A stretch of 64,000 nt of DNA from Rhodococcus sp. WMMA185 (GTDB lineage: Bacteria > Actinomycetota > Actinomycetes > Mycobacteriales > Mycobacteriaceae). Positions 4,135 through 33,631 of the stretch are shown here, piece after piece (position 1 is the stretch's first letter; each line of letters opens with the position of its first letter). Position numbers and translations under genes: made by a program. The notes beneath the pieces were generated by a model, which did no database searches, was not told where the DNA came from, and was given only the letters and a program-made list of their open reading frames with translations. The stretch lies in NCBI RefSeq assembly GCF_001767395.1, contig NZ_CP017014.1, positions 4,171,012-4,235,011 on the forward strand. The letters are read 5' to 3'.

Positions 4135-4336
4135 GCTCCTGCCGGCAACGCAGCTCACGTCGCCTGAAGCGATCGGCGGGACAACCACTAGAGCTTGGCG
4201 GCCTCCGAGACAGTCAGCCGGTGTAGGTCCACGAGACGCTCTGAGGTGAGCACGTCATCCGAGCCACCCCGAAAACGCCTTGGGGTTGGTGTGCGGCCAG
4301 TCGGAGCTTGGCGCCGCATCTCGTGAAGCTCACTTG

Positions 4337-7802: not shown

Positions 7803-7982
7803 GGACGGTTTGAACACAGGGGCACCCCGTCCTTAACCTCGTTTCAGCGTGTCTCCCTGTCACGGCGCCGTTTGCCGCAACGAGCCTGAGAAGGTTGTCG
7901 GTAGGGGCGAGTACCAAAGATCTTGAAGCTCACGAGATGGAGTTCTCGGCAGCAACGGAACGTGATGCGGAAGGGCGGTCGA

Positions 7983-10139
7983 GTGGCTGTAGTAGACGAT
8001 CGGGGCCGTTCCGACTACCCGGGTCCACCCGAGGAGCCGGGCGAGGAGTTCGGCAGGCAGCCTCCGCATGACATGGCAGCCGAGCAGTCGGTGCTCGGCG
8101 GCATGCTACTCAGCAAGGACGCCATCGCCGACGTGCTCGAGGTGCTCCGGCCCGGCGATTTCTATCGCCCCGCGCATCAATCTGTGTACGACGCCGTCCT
8201 CGACCTCTACGCCCGTGGTGAACCGGCCGACCCGGTGACCGTATCCGCTGAACTGGAAAGGCGCGGCGAACTCCGACGGATCGGCGGAGCGCCCTACCTG
8301 GTGACGCTCACCCAGACGGTGCCGACCGCCGCCAACGCCGGATATTACGCCGACATCGTGGCCGAGAAGGCGATCCTGCGACGCCTTGTCGATGCCGGTA
8401 CCCGCATCGTGCAGTACGGCTACACCGGCGCTGACGGCCAGGATGTCGCCGAGGTCGTCGACCGCGCCCAGGCGGAGGTCTTCGAGGTCACCGAGCGGCG
8501 CACGGCCGAAGACTTCGTCCCACTCGAGCAGTTGCTGCAGCCCACGATGGACGAGATCGACTCCATCGCCAGCCGCGGCGGAATCTCCCTCGGTGTGCCC
8601 ACCGGGTTCGTCGAACTCGACGAGGTCACCAACGGCCTCCATCCGGGCCAGATGATCATCGTCGCGGCCCGGCCCGGTGTGGGTAAGGCGCTCGCTCTCG
8701 ACACACCCCTCCCCACCCCGACGGGCTGGACCACCATGGGTGAGGTTCAGGTGGGTGATCATCTGATCGACGCCGACGGCTTACCCACTCGCGTCGTCGC
8801 GGCCACCGAGGTCATGCTCGACCGGCCCTGCTACGAGGTGGAGTTCTCCGACGGCGCCGTCCTGGTCGCAGACGCCCAGCATCAGTGGCTGACGCGGACC
8901 GGCGGTGTGGCCGCCGTCCGCACCACGGATCAGATTGCCGAATCGCTGGGGCGGGGGCACTACGTCGCACATGCCGGCGCGCTCGAGTTACCTACGTCGA
9001 GCCTCGACGTCGACCCCTACGCGCTGGGAGCCGCGCTCGCCTGCGGGGTCCCAGAGGCGGACAAGCGCGTTCCGGCTGAATTGCTGCGCGGCTCGGTGTT
9101 GGAGCGGCGCGAGCTGCTGGCCGGTCTGCTCGACGTAGGCGGTTCGGTCAGTGAAGACGGATCGGTTCGCTTCGAGGCCAAGGAGATTCCGCTCGCGGCG
9201 GATGTTCGCGAGCTGGTAGTCGGGTTGGGATATGACTGCCGCCACGAAGATCGCTGTCTCACGTTCTCTGCAGATGAGGAAGTGTTCCAGCTTCACCGAA
9301 AGGCAATCCAGCACAAGGAACTTCGCGGTCCCGTCAGTTCGGCGCGCCGAATCGTCGATGTTCGCCGGATCGACAGCGTCCCAGTGCGTTGCGTCGAGGT
9401 CGACAACGCTGAGCATCTCTATCTCGCCGGCCGGTCGATGATCCCAACGCACAATTCCACGCTCGGCATGGATTTCCTGCGATCGTGCTCGATCAAGAAC
9501 GGCATGGCCTCCGTCATCTTCTCCCTGGAGATGGGGAAGACCGAGATCGTCATGCGACTGCTGTCCGCCGAGGCGAAGATCAAACTCGGTGACATGCGTT
9601 CGGGCAAGATGAGCGACGACGATTGGACGAAACTCGCTCGCCGCATGAGTGAGATCAGCGAGGCGCCGCTCTTCATCGACGATTCCCCCAACCTCACCAT
9701 GATGGAGATCCGCGCCAAGGCCCGCCGCCTCAAGCAGAAGCATGACATCAAACTCATTGTGGTGGACTACCTTCAGCTGATGACGTCCGGCAAGAAGGTC
9801 GAGTCACGTCAGCAGGAAGTCTCCGAGTTCTCCCGCAGCCTCAAGCTTCTCGCCAAGGAACTCGAGGTCCCCGTGGTCGCCATCTGTCAGCTCAACCGTG
9901 GACCCGAGCAGCGAACGGACAAGAAACCGATGGTGTCTGACCTTCGCGAGTCGGGCTCGCTCGAGCAGGACGCCGACATGGTCATCCTGCTCCACCGCCC
10001 CGATGCCTTCGAGCGAGACGACCCACGCGGCGGCGAGGCCGACCTCATCCTCGGCAAACACCGCAACGGCCCGACGGCGACAATCACCGTGGCACACCAA
10101 CTTCACCTGTCCAAGTTCGTAGACATGGCGCGGGGGTAG
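7983..10139 (+). CDS. dnaB: Replicative DNA helicase DnaB interrupted by an intein
   Basis: The precursor has 718 residues; removing the intein leaves 462, the normal size. The N-terminal domain (AAEQSVLGGMLLSKDAIADV) interacts with primase. The RecA-like domain has Walker A ARPGVGK-S, split by the intein, Walker B (LIVVDYLQLM) and the QLNRGPEQR motif. It unwinds DNA ahead of the replisome as a hexamer. I chose GTG 7983: GGAAGGGCGG lies upstream and the start MAVVDD matches mycobacterial DnaB; a TTG at 7923 adds 20 residues. The ATPase can form only after protein splicing, because the intein separates the P-loop Lys from the Ser. Confidence 0.97.
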   Translation: MAVVDDRGRSDYPGPPEEPGEEFGRQPPHDMAAEQSVLGGMLLSKDAIADVLEVLRPGDFYRPAHQSVYDAVLDLYARGEPADPVTVSAELERRGELRRIGGAPYLVTLTQTVPTAANAGYYADIVAEKAILRRLVDAGTRIVQYGYTGADGQDVAEVVDRAQAEVFEVTERRTAEDFVPLEQLLQPTMDEIDSIASRGGISLGVPTGFVELDEVTNGLHPGQMIIVAARPGVGKALALDTPLPTPTGWTTMGEVQVGDHLIDADGLPTRVVAATEVMLDRPCYEVEFSDGAVLVADAQHQWLTRTGGVAAVRTTDQIAESLGRGHYVAHAGALELPTSSLDVDPYALGAALACGVPEADKRVPAELLRGSVLERRELLAGLLDVGGSVSEDGSVRFEAKEIPLAADVRELVVGLGYDCRHEDRCLTFSADEEVFQLHRKAIQHKELRGPVSSARRIVDVRRIDSVPVRCVEVDNAEHLYLAGRSMIPTHNSTLGMDFLRSCSIKNGMASVIFSLEMGKTEIVMRLLSAEAKIKLGDMRSGKMSDDDWTKLARRMSEISEAPLFIDDSPNLTMMEIRAKARRLKQKHDIKLIVVDYLQLMTSGKKVESRQQEVSEFSRSLKLLAKELEVPVVAICQLNRGPEQRTDKKPMVSDLRESGSLEQDADMVILLHRPDAFERDDPRGGEADLILGKHRNGPTATITVAHQLHLSKFVDMARG
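8688..9455 (+). mobile_element. Class 3 mini-intein at the DnaB Walker A site
   Basis: A 256-residue intein lies between Lys (codon 8685) and Ser (codon 9456) of GKS. It begins with Ala rather than Cys or Ser. Class 3 inteins are defined by Trp in block B, Cys in block F and Thr in block G; here Trp67 (AQHQWLTR), Cys235 (PVRCVEVDN) and Thr254 (MIPTHN, ending in Asn256) all fit. In that class the block F Cys starts splicing. A LAGLIDADG-like remnant (LLAGLLDVGGSVSEDGS, about 143-159) remains, but the first motif (YALGAALACG, 111-120) is eroded and the spacing is short, so homing activity is probably lost. Confidence 0.93.
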
Positions 10140-12959: not shown

Positions 12960-14093
12960 TCAGTCGGGTAGGCGAACGGGCATCAGTACATAGATCAGAC
13001 CGTCGCGGCGCTTACCGTCGGGTTCGCGATCGGTCGCACGCAGAATCGCTGCTCTGGTAGGGCCGTTCAGGGCGATCTCTACGATCTCGGCATGCGCGGC
13101 GGTCAGTCCCTCGAGTAGATAACGGGGGTTGAAGGCGATGGTCAACGGTTCGCCGTCGAACTCGCAACCGATGGACTCCTCCGCGCTTCCTTCGTTGTCG
13201 CCCCCGGCAGACAAACGAGCCGTGGTTGCGGCGAAGGTCAACCGAACCTGCGCTCCTTTGGGCGAGAGAAGCGACACCCGTTTGATCGCGGCGATCAGCG
13301 GGGCGGAACGCATGCGGGCGGATGCGGTGCGGGTGGTCTCGAGATAGCGCTCGTAGGGCGCATAGGGCATGTCGAGCGTGCGCATGGTGTGATGCTGCTC
13401 GTCGGTCGCGAGTCCCAGGATCGCTTGCCCTGGAACACTGGCGATTTCGATTCTCGGTCCCGTGAGCGTCTTGCTTGTCTCTGCCAGCGCGCGGGCCGGC
13501 ACGAGCATGCTGGTTGGTCTCGAGTTGCCCATCGCGGCCACAGGCTCCCACCTGAGCTCGCGGATCGCGATGCGGAACCGGTCGGTGCTCACCAGCCGCA
13601 GGAACGAGGGATGGAATTCGATGTTGATCCCGGTCAGCATGGGCAACGTGTCGTCGCGCCCGGCGGCCACGACCACCTGCGCCACGGCGTCGCGTAGGTC
13701 TGAGTGATTGACTGCGCCGACCGCTGCAGGTGAGGGCGGGAGGTCTGGGTAGTCCTCGACAGTCATCAGCGGCAGGGCGAATCGCGATGGACCGCAGACG
13801 ATCTCGAGGCGGTCCCCGTTGTCGGACAACTCGACCGGCTGCGGGGGGAGGGCTTTCGCGATATCGGTGAGCAGTCGCCCCGATACCAGTGCAGCACCGG
13901 GCTCGTCCACCACTGCATCGGTGATCGTGGCATGGGAGGAGATCTCGTAGTCGAAACCGGCGACCGACGCCGAGTCCGGTTCCGCTCGTAGTCGAATGCC
14001 CGCGAGCACGGGGATCGAAGGGCGCCGAGGCACTGTTGGCCCGACCACGGCCACCGCATCGGCGAGACGATCGCGGTCTACACGGAGTTTCAT
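12960..14093 (-). CDS. DNA polymerase III beta subunit (sliding clamp) paralogue
   Basis: This 377-residue protein has the three-domain clamp pattern: MKLRVDRDRLADAVAVVG, RPSIPVLAGIRL, a middle domain with DTLPMLTGINIEF, and the C-terminal PVRLPD close to the clamp ending. The housekeeping dnaN sits beside dnaA and recF; this copy does not, and is somewhat divergent. It may replace or modify the clamp under special conditions such as repair. The ATG at 14093 overlaps the stop of the upstream 123-residue gene (ATGA), so translation of the two is coupled. An upstream extension to 14201 lacks a site. Confidence 0.85.
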   Translation of the reverse strand: MKLRVDRDRLADAVAVVGPTVPRRPSIPVLAGIRLRAEPDSASVAGFDYEISSHATITDAVVDEPGAALVSGRLLTDIAKALPPQPVELSDNGDRLEIVCGPSRFALPLMTVEDYPDLPPSPAAVGAVNHSDLRDAVAQVVVAAGRDDTLPMLTGINIEFHPSFLRLVSTDRFRIAIRELRWEPVAAMGNSRPTSMLVPARALAETSKTLTGPRIEIASVPGQAILGLATDEQHHTMRTLDMPYAPYERYLETTRTASARMRSAPLIAAIKRVSLLSPKGAQVRLTFAATTARLSAGGDNEGSAEESIGCEFDGEPLTIAFNPRYLLEGLTAAHAEIVEIALNGPTRAAILRATDREPDGKRRDGLIYVLMPVRLPD

Positions 14094-14461
14094 CGGTTTT
14101 CTTCCTCGTCGAGGGTTCGATATTCCAGGCGTCGGTGCAGTGCACTGGCCCGAGCGTGTGCGGCTTGCTTGGAGCGGTGGCCGAATGTCTCGGCGATCCA
14201 ACTCCAGCTGTTGCCGTGTTCGCTGGCTGCCCGCATCAGGCCCAGTTCCAGCCGATCCAGATCGGTCCGCGCGACCGACAGCAATACGACGCAGGCGTAG
14301 ACCACGTGGTGTGGTAGCTCTACTCCGTCGTTGTCCAATCGGTTCAGTACTCCGCGCACGATCGCCGTCGGGTCGTCACGGGGTGCTTCGTTCGTCGATG
14401 ACGATGTGGCTTGCAGCCACTCGTCGAGCATCGCCGCCTCCGGCCGTTCGGGATCGGGCAT
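14090..14461 (-). CDS. Small HTH-like protein coupled to the clamp paralogue
   Basis: A 123-residue protein that I cannot assign to a named family. Its C-terminal part, SWSWIAETFGHRSKQAAHAR, resembles the small helix-turn-helix proteins of actinobacteria that read W..IA..LG.S.QAAH.R. The middle is helical and hydrophobic (HHVVYACVVLLSVART). It is the first gene of a two-gene unit with the clamp paralogue, overlapping by four bases. A -10-like TAGGCT lies six bases before the ATG, so the mRNA may be nearly leaderless, and a palindrome covers the -35 area. It may be the local regulator. Confidence 0.7.
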   Translation of the reverse strand: MPDPERPEAAMLDEWLQATSSSTNEAPRDDPTAIVRGVLNRLDNDGVELPHHVVYACVVLLSVARTDLDRLELGLMRAASEHGNSWSWIAETFGHRSKQAAHARASALHRRLEYRTLDEEENR

Positions 14462-14477
14462 GCCCCGAGCCTACCCC

Positions 14478-14500
14478 ACCGTCAAAACATTTTTGACGGT
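14478..14500. promoter_or_regulatory. Palindrome in the promoter of the clamp-paralogue operon
   Basis: ACCGTCAAAA (14478-14487) and TTTTGACGGT (14491-14500) form a perfect 10-bp inverted repeat around CAT, ending 17 bases before the start of the HTH-like gene. It does not look like the actinobacterial SOS box (TCGAAC-N4-GTTCGA). It is probably an operator over the -35 region. Confidence 0.7.
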
Positions 14501-14816
14501 ACGTGGCTGGTTCGGTCACGCCGTCCATCCGGGGTACACCCGATAACCCCGCGAGTTGATCAGACGGTCGCGTCGTTCAGTCGGTCCCGGTAGATCCGAA
14601 ATGCCTTGCGATCAGAGGCAGAATCGCTCTCTCCGACTGTTCCGGTAGCGGCAAATAGCGCTAGGTGGACGTGCGGAAGCGGGGTGTGACGTGCAGGCTG
14701 TAGCCTTGGCCGCGTCGCACTTCCCGGCCTTGTTGCAGGGCGTGGCGCGCTTGCACGTAAATTGGCGAGACCCCTCGACCCGCCCGAGATCCGTCAAACT
14801 GCACTGGCGAGTCCCG
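14501..14816. other. Gene-free stretch
   Basis: I see no supported gene, RNA or repeat in this stretch between the divergent promoter of the clamp operon and the palindrome at 14817. Short open frames here lack coding-like codon use and start sites. Confidence 0.5.
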
Positions 14817-14864
14817 CTAATCCTCACTGCATCTCGACACTTGTCGAGACGCAGCGAAGATTAG
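14817..14864. repeat. 48-bp imperfect palindrome sharing sequence with the dnaB 3' flank
   Basis: Arms 14817-14839 and 14842-14864 pair over 23 bp with three mismatches and a two-base loop. The right arm repeats the element found at 10143-10166. It could be a small mobile or REP-like element or a transcription signal before the gene at 14911. Confidence 0.55.
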
Positions 14865-14910
14865 GCGGATCGATTCCGGTTCCACCCAAGGTTGGATAGT
14901 GTGAGGGACC

Positions 14911-15261
14911 ATGAGTGCCATTCCCAGTCAATGGATTCCACACCGCCGACAGGACGGTGAAGTTATCGGTTGGATCGACCTGGACTCCCAGGCGCCTGAC
15001 CTGATCCCCGTCGATCGTCTGGGCTGGCCCCTCGAGCCGGTTTCAGACTGGCCCGCCGCGGAGGAAGCACTCGAGAAGCGCGGCTTGGGTTTTCTGCTGA
15101 ATCGGTTCCACTACCGCGGACACGCTGTGAGGATCAGGCAGCTCTATGAGGACCGTGTCATCGTCACTACCGCCGTCTCCGATGCTGTCGGTGATGTCGG
15201 CGAAGAGTTCACGCTTCCATTCCCTGCCGGGACAGAGCTCACCGAGATCCAAGCCGGCTGA
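14911..15261 (+). CDS. Conserved hypothetical protein (116 aa)
   Basis: I do not recognise a family. The protein is soluble and acidic, with Trp-rich N-terminal text (QWIPHRRQDGEVIGWIDLD) and a beta-rich C-terminus (RIRQLYEDRVIVTTAVSD). Codon use is typical of the chromosome, and the ATG at 14911 follows a plausible upstream region, with a hairpin after the stop. It seems to be a single-gene transcript. Confidence 0.7.
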   Translation: MSAIPSQWIPHRRQDGEVIGWIDLDSQAPDLIPVDRLGWPLEPVSDWPAAEEALEKRGLGFLLNRFHYRGHAVRIRQLYEDRVIVTTAVSDAVGDVGEEFTLPFPAGTELTEIQAG

Positions 15262-21937: not shown

Positions 21938-23482
21938 GTGATCACTGGTGAGATCAAGAGCAAAGTCGACGCGGTGTGGGATGCGTTCTGGACCGGCGGC
22001 ATCTCCAATCCGCTCGAGGTGATGGAGCAGATCACTTACCTGCTGTTCATCCGCCGCCTCGACGACGAGCAGACCAAGGCGCTGAACCAGCAGAACCTGC
22101 TGGGCGTGACGGTCGAGAACAAGCCCTTCCCGGACGGCAACGACGAGGAGGGCCGTCCCTACGACGAGCTGCGTTGGTCGCGGATCAAGAACATGTCCGC
22201 CGAAGAGGCCTTCGACGTGGTGGGCCAGCGGGTGTTCCCGTTCATCAAGTCGATGCGCGGTGACGACTCCACCTACGCGCACTTCATGAAGGACGCGCGC
22301 CTGACCATCCCCAACGCGGGCATGCTGCAGCGCGTGATCGACCGCCTCGACCAGGTGCCGATGGGTGATCTCGACACCAAGGGCGACATCTACGAGTACC
22401 TGCTCGCGAAGATCGCCAGCGCCGGCCAGAACGGCCAATTCCGCACCCCGCGGCACATCATCCAGTTGATGGTGGAGATGACCGCGCCCAAGCCCGGCGA
22501 CACGATCGTCGACCCGGCGTCGGGCACGTGCGGCTTCCTGGTGGCGGCCACCGAGTACATGCGCGCCAACCACGCCGACGCGATCGGCTCGGGGGACGGC
22601 AAGCGCCACTATCACCACGAGATGTTCCACGGCTTCGACTTCGACAACACGATGCTGCGGATCGGCTCGATGAACCTGTTGCTGCACGGCGTGGAACAGC
22701 CCGACGTGCGGTACCGGGACTCGTTGGCGGAGGCCAACACCGGCGATGCGGGCGCATACTCGCTGATCCTGGCGAATCCACCGTTCGCGGGATCGCTGGA
22801 CTACGAGAACACCGCGAAGGACCTCCAGCAGATCATCAAGACCAAGAAGACCGAGCTGCTGTTCCTGGCGCTGTTTCTGCGGCTGCTCAAGCCCGGTGGA
22901 CGGGCGGCGGTGATCGTGCCGGACGGCGTGCTGTTCGGAAGCTCGAAGGCGCACAAGACTCTTCGCAAGATCCTGGTCGAGGATCAGAAGCTCGACGCGG
23001 TGGTGAAGCTGCCGTCGGGGGTGTTCAAGCCTTACGCAGGCGTCTCGACGGCGATCCTGTTCTTCACCAAGACCGACTCCGGCGGCACCGACAACGTCTG
23101 GTTCTACGACGTGCAGGCCGACGGGTATTCGCTCGACGACAAGCGCAACGCCCTGCTCGACGAGGACAAGCTCGGTGTGACGGCGGTGCTCGACGAGGCC
23201 GAGCACCAGAAGAACAACCTGCCGGACGTGTTGCGGCGCTGGGCCGTACGGGATAGCTCGGAGCGGGAGCGGGCGCGTACGGAGCAGAGTTTCTGCGTGC
23301 CGAAGGAGGACATCGCAGCGCAGGGTTATGACCTGTCGCTGAACCGGTACAAGGAGATCGTCCACGAGGAAATCGAGCACCGGACGCCTGAGGCGATTCT
23401 GGACGAGCTCGAGCGGATCGAGAAGGAGATCGGCGACGGCATGGCGCAACTGCGGGAGATGCTGGCGGGGGGTGCGGCGTGA
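21938..23482 (+). CDS. hsdM: Type I restriction-modification system methyltransferase subunit
   Basis: A 514-residue HsdM with the helical N-terminal domain (residues 1-150), the SAM-binding motif DPASGTCGF (192-200) and the N6-adenine methylase motif NPPF (280-283). With HsdS it methylates adenines in a bipartite target. AGGAG lies 9 bases before the GTG at 21938. It overlaps hsdS by four bases (GTGA), the first junction in the operon hsdM-hsdS-mrr. Confidence 0.96.
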   Translation: MITGEIKSKVDAVWDAFWTGGISNPLEVMEQITYLLFIRRLDDEQTKALNQQNLLGVTVENKPFPDGNDEEGRPYDELRWSRIKNMSAEEAFDVVGQRVFPFIKSMRGDDSTYAHFMKDARLTIPNAGMLQRVIDRLDQVPMGDLDTKGDIYEYLLAKIASAGQNGQFRTPRHIIQLMVEMTAPKPGDTIVDPASGTCGFLVAATEYMRANHADAIGSGDGKRHYHHEMFHGFDFDNTMLRIGSMNLLLHGVEQPDVRYRDSLAEANTGDAGAYSLILANPPFAGSLDYENTAKDLQQIIKTKKTELLFLALFLRLLKPGGRAAVIVPDGVLFGSSKAHKTLRKILVEDQKLDAVVKLPSGVFKPYAGVSTAILFFTKTDSGGTDNVWFYDVQADGYSLDDKRNALLDEDKLGVTAVLDEAEHQKNNLPDVLRRWAVRDSSERERARTEQSFCVPKEDIAAQGYDLSLNRYKEIVHEEIEHRTPEAILDELERIEKEIGDGMAQLREMLAGGAA

Positions 23483-24687
23483 GCAAGTGGCCTACGACAG
23501 CCCTGGGTGAGGTAGCAGCCTTCATCCGTGGCGTGACGTTCAAACCCGCAGACGTGGTGCCACCTGACACCGTCGGCTCCGTTTCGTGCATGCGAACGAA
23601 GAACGTGCAGGAGCACCTTGACCTTTCAGACGTCTGGGCCATCGATACAGTTCACGTAAAGCGAGTCGAGCAGTACCTCAAGAAGGGTGATCTGCTAGTT
23701 TCGTCGGCGAACAGCTGGAACCTCGTGGGAAAGTGCTCATGGGTTCCTGAGTTGGAGAGACGGTCCACGTTTGGAGGCTTCGTCACGGTCTTGCGGCCAA
23801 ACGAGGACAAAGTTGATCCTAGGTTTCTCTATCGGTTCTTCTCATCCGACCGCACGCAGGCCACTGCGCGCAGCTTCTCGCGTCAGACAACGAACATCTC
23901 AAATCTGGACCTGAAGCGCTGTGCGGCGATGCCTATTCTGCTTCCACCACTCGCCGAACAGCGCCGGATCGCCGCGATCCTCGACCACGCCGACGCCCTC
24001 CGCGCCAAGCGCCGCGAAGCCCTCGCCCGCCTCGACGAGCTTACCCAGTCGATCTTCGTCGAAATGTTCGGCGAACCATCCACAAACCCACGCGGCTGGC
24101 CCGTCCAAACAATGGACGAGCTGTGCATGGGAAACTTCCGGAATGGGCTTTCCCCCTCAAGCCGTGGAACTGTGCATGCCAACGTGCTGACGCTCTCTGC
24201 GGTCACGGGTACTGAGTTCGACAGCACAGCGGTTAAGGTGGCGACGTTCAAGACAACGCCCCCACCTGAACAATCAGTCGACGAACGAGACCTGCTGATC
24301 TGTCGAGGCAACGGCAACCTCAACCTCGTTGGAAAGGGCTATTTCGCCCCGAGAAGTTTGCCTGACACGACATTTCCAGACACCATAATTGCGGCGCGCG
24401 TCGACGCGACCTCGTGTAGTAGGGCCTACATACAGGCACTGTGGAACACTCGAGCCGTCAGGATGCAACTTGAATCTGCTGCACGAACTACCAACGGTAC
24501 GTACAAGATCAATCAGGGATCACTGGGGTCGATCAAACTCCCAATTCCTCCCTCAGAGCATCAAACGCAGTTCGCGGGTCGGATTGCTGGTATCGAAGGC
24601 TTGAGGAAGGGGCATCGCCAAGCGCTCAGTGCACTCGACGCCCTCTTCGCGTCGCTCCAGTCCCGCGCCTTCCGAGGAGAGTTGTGA
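23479..24687 (+). CDS. hsdS: Type I restriction-modification specificity subunit
   Basis: The 402-residue HsdS has two target recognition domains (about 1-155 and 205-370), each followed by a conserved helical region: LPPLAEQRRIAAILDHADAL and IPPSEHQTQFAGRIAGIEGL. These helices set the spacing of the two half-sites. The recognition domains have less GC-biased codons than hsdM, as is usual for exchangeable domains. It starts at the hsdM stop and ends within the mrr start. Confidence 0.95.
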   Translation: MSKWPTTALGEVAAFIRGVTFKPADVVPPDTVGSVSCMRTKNVQEHLDLSDVWAIDTVHVKRVEQYLKKGDLLVSSANSWNLVGKCSWVPELERRSTFGGFVTVLRPNEDKVDPRFLYRFFSSDRTQATARSFSRQTTNISNLDLKRCAAMPILLPPLAEQRRIAAILDHADALRAKRREALARLDELTQSIFVEMFGEPSTNPRGWPVQTMDELCMGNFRNGLSPSSRGTVHANVLTLSAVTGTEFDSTAVKVATFKTTPPPEQSVDERDLLICRGNGNLNLVGKGYFAPRSLPDTTFPDTIIAARVDATSCSRAYIQALWNTRAVRMQLESAARTTNGTYKINQGSLGSIKLPIPPSEHQTQFAGRIAGIEGLRKGHRQALSALDALFASLQSRAFRGEL

Positions 24688-25610
24688 CCGCAGCGGAACC
24701 CGTCTCTGCGATGCCGGTGTGGTCGGGCTTCCTGACCCCTGCGCTCAAGGTACTCAGCGATGGGAGGACATGGCGCAAGCGAGATCTCCATGCAGCCGTC
24801 GCTGATCACGTCGGACTCTCCGCGGACCAACGGGCGGAGGTGTTGCCTTCCGGGCAGAGTCGTTCTGACAACAGGATCGGTTGGGCGCTCAGTGGCCTGT
24901 ACCGCGCCAAGCTGGTTGAGAAGCCGGCGCGGGCGACATTCGTCATAGCCGACGCGGGCCGCGAATTGCTCGCAGCTCACCCCACCGGGATAACCGAGAA
25001 AACACTCAAAGCCGTTCCCGCGTACCGGGACTATGTTCCACCAGCGCGGGCATCAGCCGACACGTCGGCAACTAGCACTGAGCCCGAAGAGGAAGCGGAT
25101 CCGCTCGAGCAGATCGAGACCGGCGTCAAACGTCTCCACTCCGAGGTCGCCGCAGACCTGCTCGAGCGCCTGCGCGAACAGCACCCCGATTTCCTCGAGC
25201 AGTCCGTCCTGGACGTACTCGTCGCCATGGGGTACGGCGGCACCGAGGGGAAGGCTGCCCGGATCGCCGGGTCGGGAGACGGTGGCGTCGATGGCGTGAT
25301 CGACCAGGACCCTCTGGGGCTTGACCGGATCTATGTACAGGCAAAGCGCTATGCGCAAGACAATGCTGTGGGTAGGCCAGAGATCCAAGCATTCGTCGGA
25401 GCGCTGCACGGAGTCGGTGCCGCTCGGGGCGTCTTCATCACCACCAGTCGGTTTACTGCTGAAGCGCGGGCCTATTCCGACACCATCGGGACCAGGGTAA
25501 TCCTCATCGACGGAGAACGACTGGCAGCGCTGATGATCAAATACGGCGTCGCAGTACAGGTCCGTCAAACGTTCACCCTCGTCGAAGTCGATGAAGACTA
25601 TTTCGAATAA
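24684..25610 (+). CDS. mrr: Mrr-type restriction endonuclease
   Basis: A 308-residue protein with an N-terminal winged-helix domain (Mrr_N, about 15-95), a Glu-rich linker and a C-terminal Mrr catalytic domain of the PD-(D/E)xK fold: GSGDGGVDGVI (Asp203) and VQAKRYA (Gln219, Lys221). E. coli Mrr is a type IV enzyme that cuts DNA with foreign methylation. Here it overlaps hsdS by four bases (GTGA), so it is made with the methylase. It may act as an extra nuclease of this system or as an independent barrier. Confidence 0.92.
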   Translation: MTAAEPVSAMPVWSGFLTPALKVLSDGRTWRKRDLHAAVADHVGLSADQRAEVLPSGQSRSDNRIGWALSGLYRAKLVEKPARATFVIADAGRELLAAHPTGITEKTLKAVPAYRDYVPPARASADTSATSTEPEEEADPLEQIETGVKRLHSEVAADLLERLREQHPDFLEQSVLDVLVAMGYGGTEGKAARIAGSGDGGVDGVIDQDPLGLDRIYVQAKRYAQDNAVGRPEIQAFVGALHGVGAARGVFITTSRFTAEARAYSDTIGTRVILIDGERLAALMIKYGVAVQVRQTFTLVEVDEDYFE

Positions 25611-25871
25611 CCACGAACCTGTGGCAGTTGGTGCTGTAGGAATCGATGCCCTACCGGGGCGACCAGTGGCTATAACCTAGCGGTGGCTCGATATGGACGT
25701 TGCTGGAGTGTGTAGGAGTGTGTATTTCATTGTGCAGCTGACTGTGAACAAGAGTGAATCTGAATCAGATCTACTCCGTACTCAGGTGGAGAATATGGTG
25801 ATTGATCTGCGGATATCATCAAATGGACACAAATAGAGAAAATGAGTACATAGGTGGGCTATCCTGTGGAC

Positions 25872-27650
25872 ATGTTGTGGACCGCGGAGCGACTTCAGGA
25901 TGTGCTGGCGGACCTGCGACTGCGCGGCGGGGATCGCACTGAGGTCGAAGTCAAGCGTGCGACTGGTGGATGTCCTGGGTTGGCCGAAACGCTCTGCGCC
26001 TTCGGCAACATGCCAGAAGGCGGCACCATCCTTCTGGGCGTCGATGAAGCGCGAGACTTCGAAGTCGTCGGCGTGGCATCCGTGGCCGAGATCGAGGGAA
26101 GTGTTGCGTCGCAAGCTAGGAACAGGGTCACACCTCCCGTTCACGTGAAGTTCGAGCATGCGGTAGTCGACGGACGAGATGTCGTCGTTGCCGGTGTGGC
26201 TGGGCTCCCGACATCCGACCGGCCATGTCGTGTGGTCAGGGGAGATTCCGCGTATCTGAGACAGGCCGACGGCGATTATCGGATGTCAGATCAGGAAGTG
26301 GCACAACTTATCGCACTCCGCGACAAGCCTCGCTACGACGCGGAATCGGTAGCAGGGTCTTCCGCTGAGGATCTCGATGCACGGCTTGTAGCGGTGTTTC
26401 TTTCAGAAGCGAGATCCTCGTCCAGGCGGCTTGCCGATGCCACGGATGAACAGATTCTCCGGTGGAAGGGGGTTACCTCGCCTGAAGGGCACAATCTTAC
26501 GATCGCGGGGTTGTATGCGCTCGGACAGTACCCACAGCAGTTCGCGCCGTCGTTGTCCATCACTGCTGGGGTCGAACTACCTGATCGGACTGAGGGGCGA
26601 ACACGTGACCTGGTTCACCTCGACGGTCCGATTCCGGACATGTTGGATCAAGCAATGGAATGGGTGCGCCGGAACACTCGAAGTGTGATCCGGTACGGTG
26701 CCGATGGTCACGGCGTCGACCAGAGTGAAATTCCTATGGTCGCCGTCCGAGAGTTGATCGCAAACGCGCTGGTACATAGAGACCTTGGCCCGCATACACA
26801 GAGCAAGCGTGTGGAAATTCGTCTACGAGACGATAAGCTGGTCATCGCGAATCCGGGCGGGCTGTGGGGCTTGAGCCGTGATCAACTCGGCAAGCCGACC
26901 GGGAAATCCGCAGTAAACGAATTCTTGTATGAGATTTGCAAACTGACGCGGACGAAGACGGGTAGCCGTGTTGTCGAAGGTGAGGGTGGCGGAATCCGGG
27001 AAGTGCGATCGGCCCTGCGCCAAGCAGGGATGCGCCCTCCTGAGTTCCATGACACCGGTGTGAGATTCACCGCAGTTGTTCCGCGCCATGCGCTGCTGTC
27101 CCCTGACGACCTGTCCTGGCTGACCGATGTTGTCGGAGATGCGGCGTTATCGGATATGCAGCGTCAGATTCTCGCCTCGATGCGTCACGGACAGGAATGG
27201 ACGAATTCATTTGTGCGACAGGAGTTTGCACCGATCGATTCGACCGATGCCCGAGCCGTGTTGCAGGGCTTGGTCACCGCAGAGCTCGCCGTTGCCAGTG
27301 GTGATCGAGGCAGCACCACCTACCATCTTGCGCCGAAACTTGCCGAAGGAATCGAACGGACCGTACCAACGGTAGAGATTCTTGATGCAGGGGACGACAC
27401 CCCGACACCCTCTGGTGTGCCGGGAAATGCGGAACTTGCAAAGTTGGCGTCCAACGTCCCACCGGTCTGGGGTGCGCTCGACCAGCCCAGGTCTGTCCGG
27501 GAACTGGTTGATGCGACAGGGCTCAAGGCGCATCAGGTCAAATACGCACTCAACAAGTTGATCGACCGCGGAATCATTCAGATCTATGGAGGCCCCGGCC
27601 ACCGGGGGACTCGGTATATGCGCTGTTCGGGCAGTGTTGACTCGAGCTGA
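25872..27650 (+). CDS. Schlafen AlbA-2 domain / RecG-C-like ATP-binding protein
   Basis: About 592 residues. The N-terminal AlbA_2 (Schlafen) domain is seen in EVEVKRATGGCPGLAETLCA and EGGTILLGVDE. The middle has ELIANALVHRDLG, the signature of the HATPase-like region next to these domains. The C-terminus holds a winged helix (VRELVDATGLKAHQVKYALN). Relatives occur in restriction and defence islands as regulators or effectors; the function here is unproved. The start is uncertain: ATG 25872 or GTG 25854, neither with a clear binding site. A 260-base, less GC-rich gap separates it from mrr. Confidence 0.82.
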   Translation: MLWTAERLQDVLADLRLRGGDRTEVEVKRATGGCPGLAETLCAFGNMPEGGTILLGVDEARDFEVVGVASVAEIEGSVASQARNRVTPPVHVKFEHAVVDGRDVVVAGVAGLPTSDRPCRVVRGDSAYLRQADGDYRMSDQEVAQLIALRDKPRYDAESVAGSSAEDLDARLVAVFLSEARSSSRRLADATDEQILRWKGVTSPEGHNLTIAGLYALGQYPQQFAPSLSITAGVELPDRTEGRTRDLVHLDGPIPDMLDQAMEWVRRNTRSVIRYGADGHGVDQSEIPMVAVRELIANALVHRDLGPHTQSKRVEIRLRDDKLVIANPGGLWGLSRDQLGKPTGKSAVNEFLYEICKLTRTKTGSRVVEGEGGGIREVRSALRQAGMRPPEFHDTGVRFTAVVPRHALLSPDDLSWLTDVVGDAALSDMQRQILASMRHGQEWTNSFVRQEFAPIDSTDARAVLQGLVTAELAVASGDRGSTTYHLAPKLAEGIERTVPTVEILDAGDDTPTPSGVPGNAELAKLASNVPPVWGALDQPRSVRELVDATGLKAHQVKYALNKLIDRGIIQIYGGPGHRGTRYMRCSGSVDSS

Positions 27651-28274
27651 GTATTTGAGGCAAGGTACCTCCACTCTGACGCGGTAACGCACCGGAGGCA
27701 GAGTGGCACACCAGCGTCCATGTCCCGCACCGCTTGCTGGTGAACGTGACGTTGCTGGCTGCATGGTGACGACCTCGTGCCGCTCTCGTTGCTGTTGGCG
27801 AGGATCTCGTTGAAGTCTCCGCTGGTGCCTCGGGACCGCTGCCGGTAGCACTTTGGATGTCCCACTGTTTCGGTATGCCCCCGGATTGATGGCGACGCCG
27901 ACGAGCTAGATGCCGTCGCCTGCTCCTTAGGCGGCAGTTCTCTCTCGCGGCGATCGATATCGTCACTCTATTCATCCAGTTCCGACGCAAAGGCGTCGAG
28001 GGCGACGTTCTCGGAGTCGGTGCGGGCCTGTCGATCCGGTTCCCGTTCCGCGACATCCTGTTCCTGCTTCGCCACCTTCTTGGTTGCCGTTCGATGGGAC
28101 GATTCGGCCCTGGCTGAGTGGCTCACGAGCAAGGGGAAGGGGTCGTACGAGCAGTACCTCATCCGCTGGTTCGCGGAGCATGAGCTCGATGTGTTGAAAG
28201 GGGAATCCTGACGGATGACGGGGCGGCGATCGAGGCGTCCTGACGGCCCGACTTCGTCGACAGACCCGCCCGAG
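27651..28274. other. Gene-poor stretch with probable gene debris
   Basis: I cannot support an intact gene. On the plus strand two frames read like protein fragments: IQFRRKGVEGDVLGVG...FPFRDILFLLRHLLG (about 27955-28085) and, in another frame, WDDSALAEWLTSKGKGSYEQ to a stop at 28211. This looks like a decayed or frameshifted gene, but a minus-strand frame over the same bases is also open, so strand and identity stay uncertain. Confidence 0.4.
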
Positions 28275-29462
28275 TTACCCCGCCAAGTACGCGGGCGGCG
28301 GCGTGCGATCGAGGGCCAATGCCACGGCCGCGCGGGCCGCGACGGCGCCGACCAGGTTGCCTGTGCCGTTGTACCCGCCCACGGCGATGACTCCAGGGCG
28401 GGTTTCCGCGCACAGTGGACGACCGTCGTCCGTGTAGCCGACAGACGCCGCCCACCGCTGGACGACGTCGACGGGACGGCCGGCTATGCGTTCGGCGACG
28501 TACTCGATGTAGTGCTGCACCGCCGTGGTCGGCGAGGTGTCGGTGGTCCACTCGGCATCGGCGAACAGGTCCCGCCCACCGCCGACGAACAGGCGCCCAT
28601 CGGCGGTTTGCTGTGCGTAGTCGTAGCCCCACCGGCCGTACACCGGGCACGGCAGGCGCCGGGGGAGGCCTTCGGCAGTACAGAGCATCTGCAGCCGTGC
28701 CGTCCGGACGCGTCCTCGTAATTCCGGGAGCACCTGCTCGAGCCGGCCGTCCACCGCCACGATGATCACGGGTGCATGCACCGCGCCGTGATCGGTGACA
28801 ACCCTTCCGTTGTCGATGAGCCTGACGTTCGAGTGCTCGTACAGCTCGGCCGAATGTCGCAGCAGCGCCGCCAGTTTCAGTGCGCGACGGGATGGATTCA
28901 TCGCCGCATCGTCGGGCAGGTACACCCCGGTCCCGAGTTCACCCTCATAGTGCTCGACACGGATTCCGTTGTCCCGCAGCGCCGCTGCGAGCGCCGCACA
29001 GTCGGCCTCCTCGACGGCCCGGTCGCGGGCTTCGGCGGCGTCACGGGGAGCACCTGGAAGTCCGGCGAGCCGGATCGAGCCAGTTCGGGCGATCACGTCG
29101 GGTCCCAAGACCGCGGCGAGATGGTCGAGTTCTGCGAGCGTGGCCCGATACAGCTCGACCGCTGGCGCACCCCACGCCTCGACGGCCGAGTGCAGGAACG
29201 CTGATGGCCCACCCAGCAGAAACCCGCCGTTGCGGCCCGCAGCACCGGCCGCGACCCTGCCGCCGTCGAGCCCGACGACCCGGAGTCCGCGGCCCGCCAG
29301 TTCGACGACGGCCGCCAACCCCGAGCCGCCGAGCCCGACGACGCACGCATCCGCGGTGACCGTCTGTTCCAGCCGCGGCAGACCCTCCCACGACGCGACC
29401 ACGGGGTCGTCGTCCCAGGCGCACGCCGAGTCCCGTCGTGGTGCGGATCGGGAGTTGCTCAC
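28275..29462 (-). CDS. FAD-dependent oxidoreductase (DAO family)
   Basis: The 395-residue protein has an FAD-binding Rossmann start ACVVGLGGSGLAAVVELAGR and the flavin motif AGRNGGFLLGG seen in gamma-glutamylputrescine oxidase and related D-amino-acid-oxidase-like enzymes, plus a C-terminal GGYNGTGN. It likely oxidises an amine or amino acid with oxygen. The start is GTG 29462. It follows the SRPBCC gene by 36 bases on the same strand. Both lie, oddly, between the parts of a restriction system. Confidence 0.85.
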   Translation of the reverse strand: MSNSRSAPRRDSACAWDDDPVVASWEGLPRLEQTVTADACVVGLGGSGLAAVVELAGRGLRVVGLDGGRVAAGAAGRNGGFLLGGPSAFLHSAVEAWGAPAVELYRATLAELDHLAAVLGPDVIARTGSIRLAGLPGAPRDAAEARDRAVEEADCAALAAALRDNGIRVEHYEGELGTGVYLPDDAAMNPSRRALKLAALLRHSAELYEHSNVRLIDNGRVVTDHGAVHAPVIIVAVDGRLEQVLPELRGRVRTARLQMLCTAEGLPRRLPCPVYGRWGYDYAQQTADGRLFVGGGRDLFADAEWTTDTSPTTAVQHYIEYVAERIAGRPVDVVQRWAASVGYTDDGRPLCAETRPGVIAVGGYNGTGNLVGAVAARAAVALALDRTPPPAYLAG

Positions 29463-29498
29463 GGTGATCGTCGGCTATCTTGCCCGGTCGCGGCCGGG

Positions 29499-29963
29499 TT
29501 AGTTGGACTCGGCAGCCTTCTTGATCGCGGCGAGGGTTGCCGGAATGCTGCTGTGTGCGGCGGCGGTGCGATCGTCGATCTGTTTTTGGGCATCGGCTCC
29601 GAACTTTTCCTGGAACATGGCAAGTCCGGCGGGCAGGAACTCCCAGGACTCGGTGAGTTCGGTGCCACCGTCGCAAGGGGTGAAGGTGTAAGCCCACCGG
29701 ACGAAGGAACCGCCGACGACGAAAGTGAACTCTCGTCCGCGGTCGGCGACCACCACCTCCGAACGCGTCTCCCAGGTCCTTTCCGGCAGTTCGTTCCGCC
29801 CGGTGAACCAGGCGCCCACAACGGGACCGCCGCCCTCGTCCCACCAGCACACCTTGCAGATCGGACTCCACTCGCCCGTCCGAGTCACGTCCGAGACCAT
29901 GTCGTAGAGAACCTCGGGCGAGCTGTCGACGACAATCGACGCCGAGAAAGTGAAATCGCTCAT
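29499..29963 (-). CDS. SRPBCC family protein (polyketide cyclase/dehydrase-like)
   Basis: A 154-residue START-like protein. It begins SDFTFSASIVVDSSPEVLYDMV, has DVTRTGEWSPICKVCWWDEG and ends with the long helix AAIKKAAESN typical of the fold, which encloses a hydrophobic ligand pocket. No specific function can be read. It is the first gene of a likely two-gene operon with the FAD oxidoreductase. Confidence 0.85.
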   Translation of the reverse strand: MSDFTFSASIVVDSSPEVLYDMVSDVTRTGEWSPICKVCWWDEGGGPVVGAWFTGRNELPERTWETRSEVVVADRGREFTFVVGGSFVRWAYTFTPCDGGTELTESWEFLPAGLAMFQEKFGADAQKQIDDRTAAAHSSIPATLAAIKKAAESN

Positions 29964-30175
29964 CTCGGCAGTATGCCACCGGAATTTACCGAACGCTCCC
30001 GGCGAAGCGGCGTCACGTCGCGCCAGCGACCGGGACGACGCGGAGAGGGGCTGCGGGTGCCAAATCAGGGGACGCGTCTGGTAGCTCGGCCGTTGCCACG
30101 ATCAGCACTACCCGGTCAGTCGGAACCCTGTGCGAAGATCACCGGACGACCATTGCAAGAGAAGGATGGGCATTG

Positions 30176-33100
30176 ATGGCGGGGAACTTTGACTTTCTGC
30201 AGGCAGAGTGGCCGATGCTGCACGCGGAGGCGCGTAAGGCGGAGCGGGACGCGCTCTTCGATGCCCGCACCACCTGTTTCTACACTCGGCGCACTGTCGA
30301 ACTGATAGTTAAGTGGCTGTACCAGGTGGAATCGCTGCGGGAGCCCTACAAGAGTGACCTTGCCGCCCGCCTGCACGACCCGGCGTTCGTCTCGATCATT
30401 GGGCACGGGCTGCAGGCGAAGATGAATCTCATCCGCAAGCTCGGTAACACCGCCGTCCACGAGGCGCGCCCGGTCCCGCCCGACGCTGGGCGCAAGGTCC
30501 TGACTGAGCTGTTTCACATCCTGTCCTGGCTCGCCCGCACCTATGCGAGCCAGCCGTCGAGTCGGCCTTCGCCGCAGCAGCAGTTCGATCCGGGACTGCT
30601 ACCCAAGCCCGGCGGCGGTGCCGCGGTTGCCAAGACTGTTGCGCAGCTCAAGAAGCTCGAGTCAGACATGGCGGCCAAGGACGCACTCCTGGAGCAATCC
30701 GAAGCCGAGAAGCGTGATCTGGCAGCGCAGTTGGCGGCGCGTGATGCTGAGAAGCAGACCAGCGACCTCGAGAAGGCGTCCCTCGAACAGCTGGTTGAAC
30801 AGTTGCAGGCGCAGATCGCTGCGGCGCACGCCGCCAGCGCGGCGACACCCGATACCCACGATTACGACGAGGCGCAGACCCGCCGCGACCTCATCGACCT
30901 GCTGCTTCAGGAGTCCGGTTGGCCGCTTGATCAGCCCCGCGACCGCGAATACCCGGTGGAGGGCATGCCGGACGGCAAGAACGGGTTCGTCGACTATGTG
31001 CTGTGGGGTGACGACGGCCTCCCGCTCGCGGTGGTCGAGGCCAAGCGCACGTCAAAGGATCCCCAGGTAGGCCAGCAGCAGGCCAAGCTGTATGCCGACT
31101 GCCTCGAGAGGTCGACCGGACAACGACCGATCATCTACTACACCAACGGGTTCGAGCACTACTTCTGGGACGACACTCATTACCCGCCCCGGCCGATAGA
31201 GGGCTTTCACACCCGTGACGAGCTGGCACTCGTGGTCCAGCGTCGTGCCTCCCGCAAGCCGCTGGGATCACTCGAGGTGCCCAACAAGATCGCCGGCCGG
31301 CCCTACCAGGAGCGCGCGATCCGTCGCGTCACCGAGTATTTCGAGGCTGACAATCAGCGCGCGGCGCTGCTGGTGATGGCGACCGGCTCCGGTAAGACAC
31401 GAACCGTCGTCGCCCTCGTCGATTTGCTGATGCGGGCCAACTGGGTCAAGCGGGTGCTCTTCCTCGCTGACCGCAAGGCGCTCGTCAAGCAGGCCGTGAA
31501 CGCGTTCAAGACCCACCTGCCCGACTCGTCACCGGTGAACCTGCTCACGGAGAAGAACACCGACGGCCGCGTCTACGTCTGCACCTACCCGACGATGATG
31601 GGTCTGATCAACGAAGTCGACGGCGGGGAAAGGAAGTTCGGCCCCGGCTACTTCGACCTCGTGGTGATCGACGAGGCGCACCGCTCGGTGTACCAGAAGT
31701 ATCGACACATCTTCTCGTATTTCGATTCGTTGCTTCTCGGTCTCACCGCAACCCCCAAGGATGAGATCGATCGCAATACGTACTCTCTCTTCAACCTCGA
31801 AACCGGAATTCCCACAGACGATTACAGTCTGGAACAGGCTATCGAGGACAAGTATCTTGTTCCACCGCGAGCGGTGACGGTTCCGCTGGCCTTTCCTCAG
31901 CGCGGGATCACCTACGACGACCTGAGCGACGAGGAGAAGCAGCAGTGGGAGGGTATCGAGTGGGGTGACGACACTGAAGAAGACGTAATCCCGGACGGCG
32001 TCGACGCCGAAGTCGTCAACAAGTGGCTGTTCAATACCGATACCGTTGACAAGGTCCTCGAGGTCCTCATGACCCGTGGGCACCGGGTCGAGGGCGGCGA
32101 CCGTCTCGGCAAAACGATCATCTTCGCGAAGAACCAGCGCCACGCCGACTTCATCGCGCAGCGCTTCGACGCAAACTATCCGCAGTTCAAAGGATCGTTC
32201 GCGCGGGTGATCACACACGCCGTCGAACAGAGTCAGGATCTGATAGACCAGTTCTCGCAGGCGGAGAAGGACCCCCAGATCGCGATCTCCGTCGACATGC
32301 TCGACACCGGTATCGATGTCCCCGAGGTGGTCAACCTCGTCTTCTTCAAACCAGTGCGTGCCAAGGCGAAGTTCTGGCAGATGGTCGGACGCGGAACCCG
32401 TCTGTGCCCAGACCTGTACGGGCCCGGTCAGGACAAGACCGACTTCTTCATCTTCGACGTCTGTGGGAACTTCGCATTCTTCAAGGAGTATCCGGACGCC
32501 TCGGAAGGAGCGGTGACAGCATCGCTGTCGCAGCGACTCTTCACGAGGCGAGCAGAATTGGTTGCGGCGCTGGGTAAGAACGATACCGATGCCGAACTTC
32601 GATCGACCACCGCCGACATGTTGCACAAGCAGGTGCAGGGGATGCGTCTCGACAACGTCATCGTCCGCGCGAAGCGGAGGCAGGTCGAGAGGTATTCCGA
32701 TCGGACCGAGTGGGAGTCACTGTCGGAGCGCAAGCTTGCCGAGATCGTCGAGAACCTGGCGGGGCTGCCGACGACGGTGCGCGACACAGACGAGATGGCC
32801 AAGCGCTTCGACCTGATGATCCTGGGTAGCCAGCTGGCGGTCCACTACCACGACGACACCCTCCCGAAGTATCGGACGTCGATCCAGCAGATCGCCGACG
32901 GGTTGCTCGACGAGGGGTTGAACATCCCGAAGGTGAAGGAAAAAGAGCCGCTGCTTCGCGAGGTGGCCGGAGACGAGTGGTGGCAGGACGTGACACTGCC
33001 GATGCTCGAGCATGCACGCCGCGAACTTCGCTCCATCGTCGGACTGCTCGAGAAGAAGAAGCGCACGATTGTCTACACCGACTTTCAGGACACCCTCGGC

Positions 33101-33631
33101 GACGTCGTCGAGGTCGACATGCCGGAGTTGCGATCCGGCACGGACGTCGAGCGCTTCACCGCGAAGGTGCGGGACTATCTGCGGCGCCAGCCCGACAACC
33201 TCGCACTGCAGAAACTACGAAACGGAAAGGCGCTCACTCCTGCGGATCTCGTTTCGTTGGAAGAACTTCTCGCTCGCAGCGGTGCCGGTGATCCCGAGGA
33301 TCTCGAGCGTGCGGTAGAGAACGCGAAGGGACTGGGGCGGTTCATTCGATCGCTCGTCGGTCTGGACAAGCAGGCGGCAACCGAGGCCTTCGCGGAATTC
33401 CTGAACGGCAAGACCGCAACCGCCAGCCAGATCGACTTCGTGAACCTCATCATCTCGCACCTGACCCGCCACGGGGAGATGGACCCGAAGCTGCTGTTCG
33501 AGTCGCCGTTCACCAACAGCGCCCCGCACGGGCCCACCGAGGTGTTCGGCGACGATCAGGCAGTGCGGCTCGTGCAGGTGATCCGGTCGATCAACGACTC
33601 CGCCGAGCCGACTGAGGTGGCCAGCGCCTGA
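30176..33631 (+). CDS. hsdR: Type I restriction enzyme endonuclease/translocase subunit
   Basis: The 1151-residue protein has an N-terminal DUF4145-like domain (1-125), a coiled coil (150-220), an HSDR_N nuclease domain with Asp273 and VVEAKR (Glu288, Lys290), and a helicase motor with ATGSGKT (402-408), DEAH (499-502), LGLTATP and QMVGRGTRLCP. The C-terminal domain is of the EcoEI type. It translocates DNA and cleaves when the HsdMS complex meets unmodified sites. AGAAGGA precedes the ATG at 30176. It is 4.6 kb from mrr, with unrelated genes between, so it needs its own promoter. Confidence 0.95.
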   Translation: MAGNFDFLQAEWPMLHAEARKAERDALFDARTTCFYTRRTVELIVKWLYQVESLREPYKSDLAARLHDPAFVSIIGHGLQAKMNLIRKLGNTAVHEARPVPPDAGRKVLTELFHILSWLARTYASQPSSRPSPQQQFDPGLLPKPGGGAAVAKTVAQLKKLESDMAAKDALLEQSEAEKRDLAAQLAARDAEKQTSDLEKASLEQLVEQLQAQIAAAHAASAATPDTHDYDEAQTRRDLIDLLLQESGWPLDQPRDREYPVEGMPDGKNGFVDYVLWGDDGLPLAVVEAKRTSKDPQVGQQQAKLYADCLERSTGQRPIIYYTNGFEHYFWDDTHYPPRPIEGFHTRDELALVVQRRASRKPLGSLEVPNKIAGRPYQERAIRRVTEYFEADNQRAALLVMATGSGKTRTVVALVDLLMRANWVKRVLFLADRKALVKQAVNAFKTHLPDSSPVNLLTEKNTDGRVYVCTYPTMMGLINEVDGGERKFGPGYFDLVVIDEAHRSVYQKYRHIFSYFDSLLLGLTATPKDEIDRNTYSLFNLETGIPTDDYSLEQAIEDKYLVPPRAVTVPLAFPQRGITYDDLSDEEKQQWEGIEWGDDTEEDVIPDGVDAEVVNKWLFNTDTVDKVLEVLMTRGHRVEGGDRLGKTIIFAKNQRHADFIAQRFDANYPQFKGSFARVITHAVEQSQDLIDQFSQAEKDPQIAISVDMLDTGIDVPEVVNLVFFKPVRAKAKFWQMVGRGTRLCPDLYGPGQDKTDFFIFDVCGNFAFFKEYPDASEGAVTASLSQRLFTRRAELVAALGKNDTDAELRSTTADMLHKQVQGMRLDNVIVRAKRRQVERYSDRTEWESLSERKLAEIVENLAGLPTTVRDTDEMAKRFDLMILGSQLAVHYHDDTLPKYRTSIQQIADGLLDEGLNIPKVKEKEPLLREVAGDEWWQDVTLPMLEHARRELRSIVGLLEKKKRTIVYTDFQDTLGDVVEVDMPELRSGTDVERFTAKVRDYLRRQPDNLALQKLRNGKALTPADLVSLEELLARSGAGDPEDLERAVENAKGLGRFIRSLVGLDKQAATEAFAEFLNGKTATASQIDFVNLIISHLTRHGEMDPKLLFESPFTNSAPHGPTEVFGDDQAVRLVQVIRSINDSAEPTEVASA

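Follow-up and report, generated by a model that had tools for sequence, protein, structure and literature searches.

Two described systems come closest to the locus analysed here. ClpC2 (Rv2667 type) is an autorepressor, probably made from a leaderless transcript, that binds CGTCAAC-n5-GTTGACG in published gel shifts (PMC10030653). It acts as an antibiotic sponge in which the residues of the parent protein ClpC1 that touch the drug are preserved, and cyclomarin, an antibiotic against ClpC1, releases its repression (PMC10030653). The other system consists of griR and mypR, the second dnaN genes of the producers of the clamp antibiotics griselimycin and mycoplanecin, which are named as self-resistance genes (PMC10817943). 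The pocket of the beta sliding clamp is the binding site both of polymerases and of these two antibiotics (PMC11139829, PMC10817943). No paper on a self-regulated second dnaN was found in the open literature. Here we describe a locus that may be of this kind. We suggest, with a probability of about one half, that it is a self-repressed two-gene switch for a spare clamp, which is turned on if an antibiotic or similar ligand blocks the main clamp. This model combines the two precedents, i.e., the second clamps for self-resistance in producers and the autorepression circuit of ClpC2.

In Rhodococcus sp. WMMA185, the gene dnaN2 (377 amino acids) is located on the minus strand at positions 12960–14093 of the window, the whole stretch of 64,000 nucleotides that was analysed. 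Its product reaches 253 bits against TIGR00663, the DnaN equivalog, where the cut-off is 137.65, and contains all three clamp domains (PF00712, PF02767 and PF02768); it thus belongs among the bacterial beta sliding clamps. The genome has exactly two dnaN copies. The housekeeping copy is flanked by dnaA and recF (C1:3982 kb), 200 kb from dnaN2, and the two products are 47% identical. A second dnaN in the genome is also what characterises the GriR and MypR systems. Like the housekeeping clamps (~43–51% identity within the order), DnaN2 is a three-domain clamp with conserved TDRFR and C-terminal MPxR motifs. The DNA-facing R24 and the hydrophobic residues of the dimer face are retained as well, and ring formation and loading on DNA are predicted. 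In contrast to the housekeeping gene, dnaN2 is unlinked to dnaA, has its own promoter and regulator, and encodes a clamp that is changed in subsite I of the pocket at positions 177, 242, 247 and 360. In many congeners, a second clamp-like match is found that is very distant (22–35% identity) and partial, in ORFs of ~265–463 amino acids (e.g. G022:C33:37046-37699, L127).

Directly upstream of dnaN2, and joined to it by an ATGA overlap at 14090–14093, is a gene on the same strand (14090–14461) for a 123-amino-acid helix-turn-helix (HTH) protein, a predicted autorepressor of the ClpC2-HTH type. The HTH covers approximately residues 75–106, with the recognition helix RSKQAAHARAS. In front of this gene, a perfect 10-3-10 palindrome at 14478–14500 contains the putative operator core CGTCAA-N7-TTGACG (14480–14498). 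Such a palindrome is expected 0.00 times in the shuffled window, and it is present in a single copy in the genome of 4.44 Mb, even when up to 3 mismatches are allowed. The -10 hexamer TAGGCT (14468–14473, minus strand) lies 6 nt 5' of the ATG, and a -35 at a spacing of 17 nt would fall inside the palindrome. The four observations from which the preliminary description started, namely a dnaN paralogue away from dnaA, the ATGA overlap with a 123-amino-acid HTH protein, the perfect palindrome and an almost leaderless -10, are all borne out. A little further upstream, an imperfect 28-bp inverted repeat with a 2-nt loop (14812–14869) is found just upstream of an ORF of 116 amino acids (14911–15261), for which a family match was sought and none was found.

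The same arrangement is found in other genomes. In a scan of 84,980 species, the sole close relative of the HTH protein (~75%) is in Nocardia sp. CNY236, where the HTH gene is followed by a clamp of 72% identity and preceded by the same palindrome. Profile searches brought in G249, G232 and G323, and later G803 and G807, giving seven genomes. All seven belong to one GTDB family of the order Mycobacteriales, to which both Nocardia and the window genome belong. In the samples of genomes searched, the occurrence is patchy and the contexts are varied: one of 28 genomes in the genus of the window, four of 150 in Nocardia and the remainder in two other genera. In every one of the seven, the HTH gene comes first and the clamp next, with a comparable overlapping junction and the operator in front. 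The preliminary description had named two outcomes that would speak against a clamp with its own regulator, the absence of another dnaN in the genome and a lack of co-conservation of the pair. Instead there are two dnaN genes, and all seven carriers keep the pair. The clamp and the operator are both missing from approximately 60 more distant loci that belong to the same broad HTH family, and among the matches listed from 395 genomes the DnaN2 clade does not occur elsewhere in the class.

A comparison of the seven promoters shows that it is the palindrome itself which is conserved. A 19-bp palindrome, CGTCAAAA-N3-TTTTGACG, is located 18–20 nt upstream of the start codon in 7/7 genomes. The frame CGTCAA-N7-TTGACG is exact in five operators and has one mismatch in the other two. 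The mean pairwise identity of the operator is 0.87, compared with 0.27 directly upstream and 0.33 directly downstream. In each of the five genomes that were scanned, the only operator-like site is the module's own. A TANNNT hexamer lies 6–7 nt before the start codon in all seven, i.e., the promoters are of the leaderless type and the transcript of the dnaN2 operon is predicted to be leaderless.

The neighbourhoods share little beyond the pair. No third gene is common to the five that were compared, save for weak matches between common enzyme families, although a downstream gene is common to two Nocardia loci, G232 and G807. No NRPS gene or cluster was recognised among the neighbours in the window, while those of the other members were judged from ORFs only; the module does not sit in a biosynthetic cluster for a clamp antibiotic, which counts against the spare-clamp model. 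This sets it apart from GriR and MypR, which by their description are part of the NRPS clusters of the producers, whereas the dnaN2 module is apart from any recognised cluster and has a conserved HTH protein and operator. What they have in common is a second actinobacterial clamp that should allow replication to continue in the presence of a cleft-binding antibiotic. Elsewhere in the window, we observe a SAM-IV riboswitch on the minus strand (4253–4325) and a DnaB replicative helicase (7923–10139) whose ATP-binding loop is apparently interrupted by an intein (GVGK...THNSTLG).

Some phage proteins are known to take over the clamp of the host, and they would not capture a spare clamp whose cleft is changed. 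The module could then protect the cell from clamp-binding phage or toxin proteins. A type I restriction-modification system is found ~7.5 kb from the module, with HsdM and HsdR at 21938–33631 and a gene for an AlbA/Schlafen-type ATPase between them. However, the module has no PADLOC match, and apart from the pair, no notable genes, and in particular no defence genes, recur in the five neighbourhoods. We consider a role in defence hardly probable.

The strongest link to a described system is that of the regulator to ClpC2. The profile of the HTH protein aligns to the N-terminal HTH of ClpC2 with an hhalign probability of 90.8% (P 1.2e-6), and that of the broader HTH family with 96.3% (P 1.9e-9), so the two HTH regions are homologous. 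The KQAA core of the recognition helix is common to both proteins. In each of the five ClpC2 loci that we compared (L176–L180), a pair of CGTCAA-N7-TTGACG sites directly precedes the ATG; one of the ten sites has a mismatch. Thus, the module and ClpC2 share a homologous HTH, the operator frame and a predicted leaderless gene directly behind the operator. In addition, in both cases an essential protein that is the target of an antibiotic has a paralogue under autorepression, which for the dnaN2 module is predicted. The differences are that ClpC2 has its HTH fused to a domain that resembles ClpC1 and binds the drug, often behind two copies of the operator, while the dnaN2 module has separate, overlapping genes, a single operator and, as the paralogue, a sliding clamp with a changed pocket. 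The 123-amino-acid protein itself has only weak Myb/HTH matches in Pfam; no fused domain like the drug-binding N-terminal domain of ClpC1 was found in it, and no ligand-binding domain was recognised.

The prediction that the 123-amino-acid protein represses its own operon is well supported, as both its HTH and the operator frame match those of ClpC2, a published autorepressor. From the single site per genome and the co-conservation of the pair with the palindrome, we infer that it would do so by binding this operator. The claim of a clamp with its own regulator is strongly supported by the co-conservation, by the uniqueness of the palindrome in each of the five genomes scanned and by the ClpC2 type of the HTH and operator. 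A more remote relative is the antitoxin RelI of M. tuberculosis (9sdc; PMC13284704), which belongs to the same broad HTH superfamily (broad HTH profile A5, E 7.7e-5). However, RelI neutralises the toxin RelS, while in the dnaN2 module there is no toxin and the partner is a clamp.

The comparison also bears on ClpC2. From the R185A/R189A mutant, a C-terminal helix was proposed to read the operator (PMC10030653). Since the HTH alone is common to the ClpC2 and dnaN2-module systems, it is probably the N-terminal HTH of ClpC2 that reads the CGTCAA half-site, and the C-terminal region may contribute too. The crystal fragment of ClpC2 (8ADA, residues 4–72) ends just short of the predicted recognition helix. 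Another CGTCAA-N7-TTGACG site, which may be there by chance, is found in Thermobispora bispora (L059, 4351–4369) inside an annotated HTH-domain gene; this gene is directly upstream of a plasmid-borne dnaN.

The preliminary description had called for a phylogeny of the clamp against the housekeeping DnaN. In maximum-likelihood trees, the seven DnaN2 form a single clade of their own with full support (100/100); an earlier tree took in five members. DnaN2 is an old clade. Between the window and the CNY236 copies, the three codon positions differ by 0.22, 0.12 and 0.47, the pattern of a maintained protein. A recent duplication of the host's own dnaN was rejected as the origin given the age of the clade, while a grouping with the housekeeping clamps of the family is not favoured and not firmly rejected (AU p 0.078).

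It is also conceivable that dnaN2 once served the replication of a plasmid, phage or integrated element and was left behind in the chromosome, as clamps are known on Streptomyces plasmids and actinophages, and transposase genes, read from the sequence, lie near some relatives. However, the fully supported clade lies apart from the tested plasmid clamps and from three viral-contig clamps, the HTH protein has no relatives on viral contigs and only distant, partial matches on plasmids, and neither a tRNA nor a phage gene was recognised beside the module in the window. We therefore regard a mobile-element origin as very unlikely; DnaN2 neither groups with the phage or plasmid clamps tested nor lies in such an element. 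Among the individual candidates that were rejected, the closest viral-contig clamps are 28–44% identical and all phage records are below 60%, the tested Streptomyces and Thermobispora plasmid clamps form a separate group, and a Tsukamurella "plasmid" match is the housekeeping dnaA-dnaN-recF locus. In the first clamp tree, one phage clamp was placed near DnaN2, on a long and unreliable branch.

Several normally invariant residues of the pocket differ in DnaN2. Using E. coli numbering and a list of pocket residues from PMC11139829, the clamp of the window has L177I, P242A, V/L247Y and L360V in subsite I of the cleft, and further P249E and P346A. Across the seven members, the changes are L177I, P242A, L247Y/H and L360V/I/F, with I at 177 and A at 242 in all of them. 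Of the columns with a single residue throughout 21 housekeeping clamps, thirteen show other residues in every DnaN2. Four of the thirteen (177, 242, 247 and 360) fall in subsite I, which has ten invariant columns in total (P 0.0098; over the whole pocket P 0.036), modest values from sequences that share ancestry. Second clamps of another actinobacterial family, f31, have changed at the same invariant positions 177, 247, 249 and 346 (overlap with DnaN2, P 0.005). A common clade of these with DnaN2 is rejected (AU p 1e-4), i.e., the changes are independent. Many f31 genomes carry two full-length dnaN genes, which in the three genomes examined (G1038, G1157 and G1137; L163–L168) are ~52–58 kb apart on opposite strands. 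In parallel to DnaN2, one of the copies lacks the invariant pocket residues and has 177I, 247R, 249V/T/Q and 346A.

These altered residues could equally mean an altered choice of partner, which counts against the spare-clamp model. The LF part of clamp-binding motifs docks in subsite I (PMC11139829), and it is in subsite I that the changes conserved across the seven members sit. DnaN2 could then be a specialised clamp for another polymerase or a repair enzyme, with the operon turned on under DNA damage or replication stress. However, an exact LexA box, as expected of an SOS gene, is absent from all seven promoters. Near-matches with 2 mismatches are found in four of them, scattered and at no conserved place, and no PafBC motif is present in any. 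Nor is a polymerase or repair gene common to the five neighbourhoods compared, and the module is patchy and its contexts are varied. On this evidence, a specialised clamp appears unlikely. The preliminary description had proposed a switchable clamp for repair or against phage. While its regulator holds up strongly, this use finds no support, as the repair, phage and defence readings are all weakened by the lack of exact LexA and PafBC motifs in the promoters, of a PADLOC match, of a recognised prophage context and of viral-contig relatives of the HTH protein. With its altered cleft and a switch of the ClpC2 type, the module is more suggestive of the bypass of a blocked clamp.

A blocked clamp could also be relieved by a decoy. 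ClpC2, the closest characterised circuit, works as a sponge (PMC10030653), and with the same HTH type and operator frame, DnaN2 could protect by soaking up a clamp-binding compound and not by replacing the blocked clamp. However, the residues with which ClpC1 contacts the drug are retained in ClpC2 (PMC10030653), whereas in DnaN2 normally invariant pocket residues are changed. The three domains, R24 and the MPxR motif are kept, as expected of a working clamp. A sponge is thus quite unlikely.

We therefore return to the self-repressed spare clamp, for which the sequences support the pair, the operator and its uniqueness, the homology of the HTH to that of ClpC2 and the changes in the cleft. In this model, the HTH protein, probably as a dimer, would bind the CGTCAA-N7-TTGACG operator, which covers the promoter, and silence the leaderless operon. 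Repression would be lifted once a ligand blocks the housekeeping clamp, most likely a natural product that binds the cleft in the manner of griselimycin and mycoplanecin, or else another cleft ligand. DnaN2 would then be made in quantity and could still be loaded and still bind polymerases. The insensitivity to antibiotic that is expected of GriR and MypR is predicted for DnaN2 from its changed pocket residues: the altered subsite I would bind the blocker poorly, so replication would go on. We infer the antibiotic role of the module, the inducer and the sensing route from these features. The model leaves the route of the signal to the HTH protein unexplained, as this protein has no recognised ligand-binding domain. 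It can be speculated, although the odds are clearly below even, that the module is a stand-alone antibiotic-sensing switch in non-producers, where the block of the clamp is sensed, the ClpC2-type repressor lets go and the replisome swaps to a drug-insensitive clamp. DnaN2 itself would perhaps be the corepressor.

DnaN is a validated tuberculosis drug target. If the model is true, relatives of Mycobacterium would have, in a self-repressed spare clamp, a natural way around DnaN drugs, and this clamp would reveal the pocket changes that are compatible with function. The combination of the HTH, CGTCAA-N7-TTGACG and a target paralogue is a searchable signature that may lead to other built-in target-protection circuits and to new natural products. 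If the antibiotic-sensing switch is real, it would, together with ClpC2, represent a wider actinobacterial strategy, in which one type of HTH is combined with paralogues of various proteins that antibiotics target.
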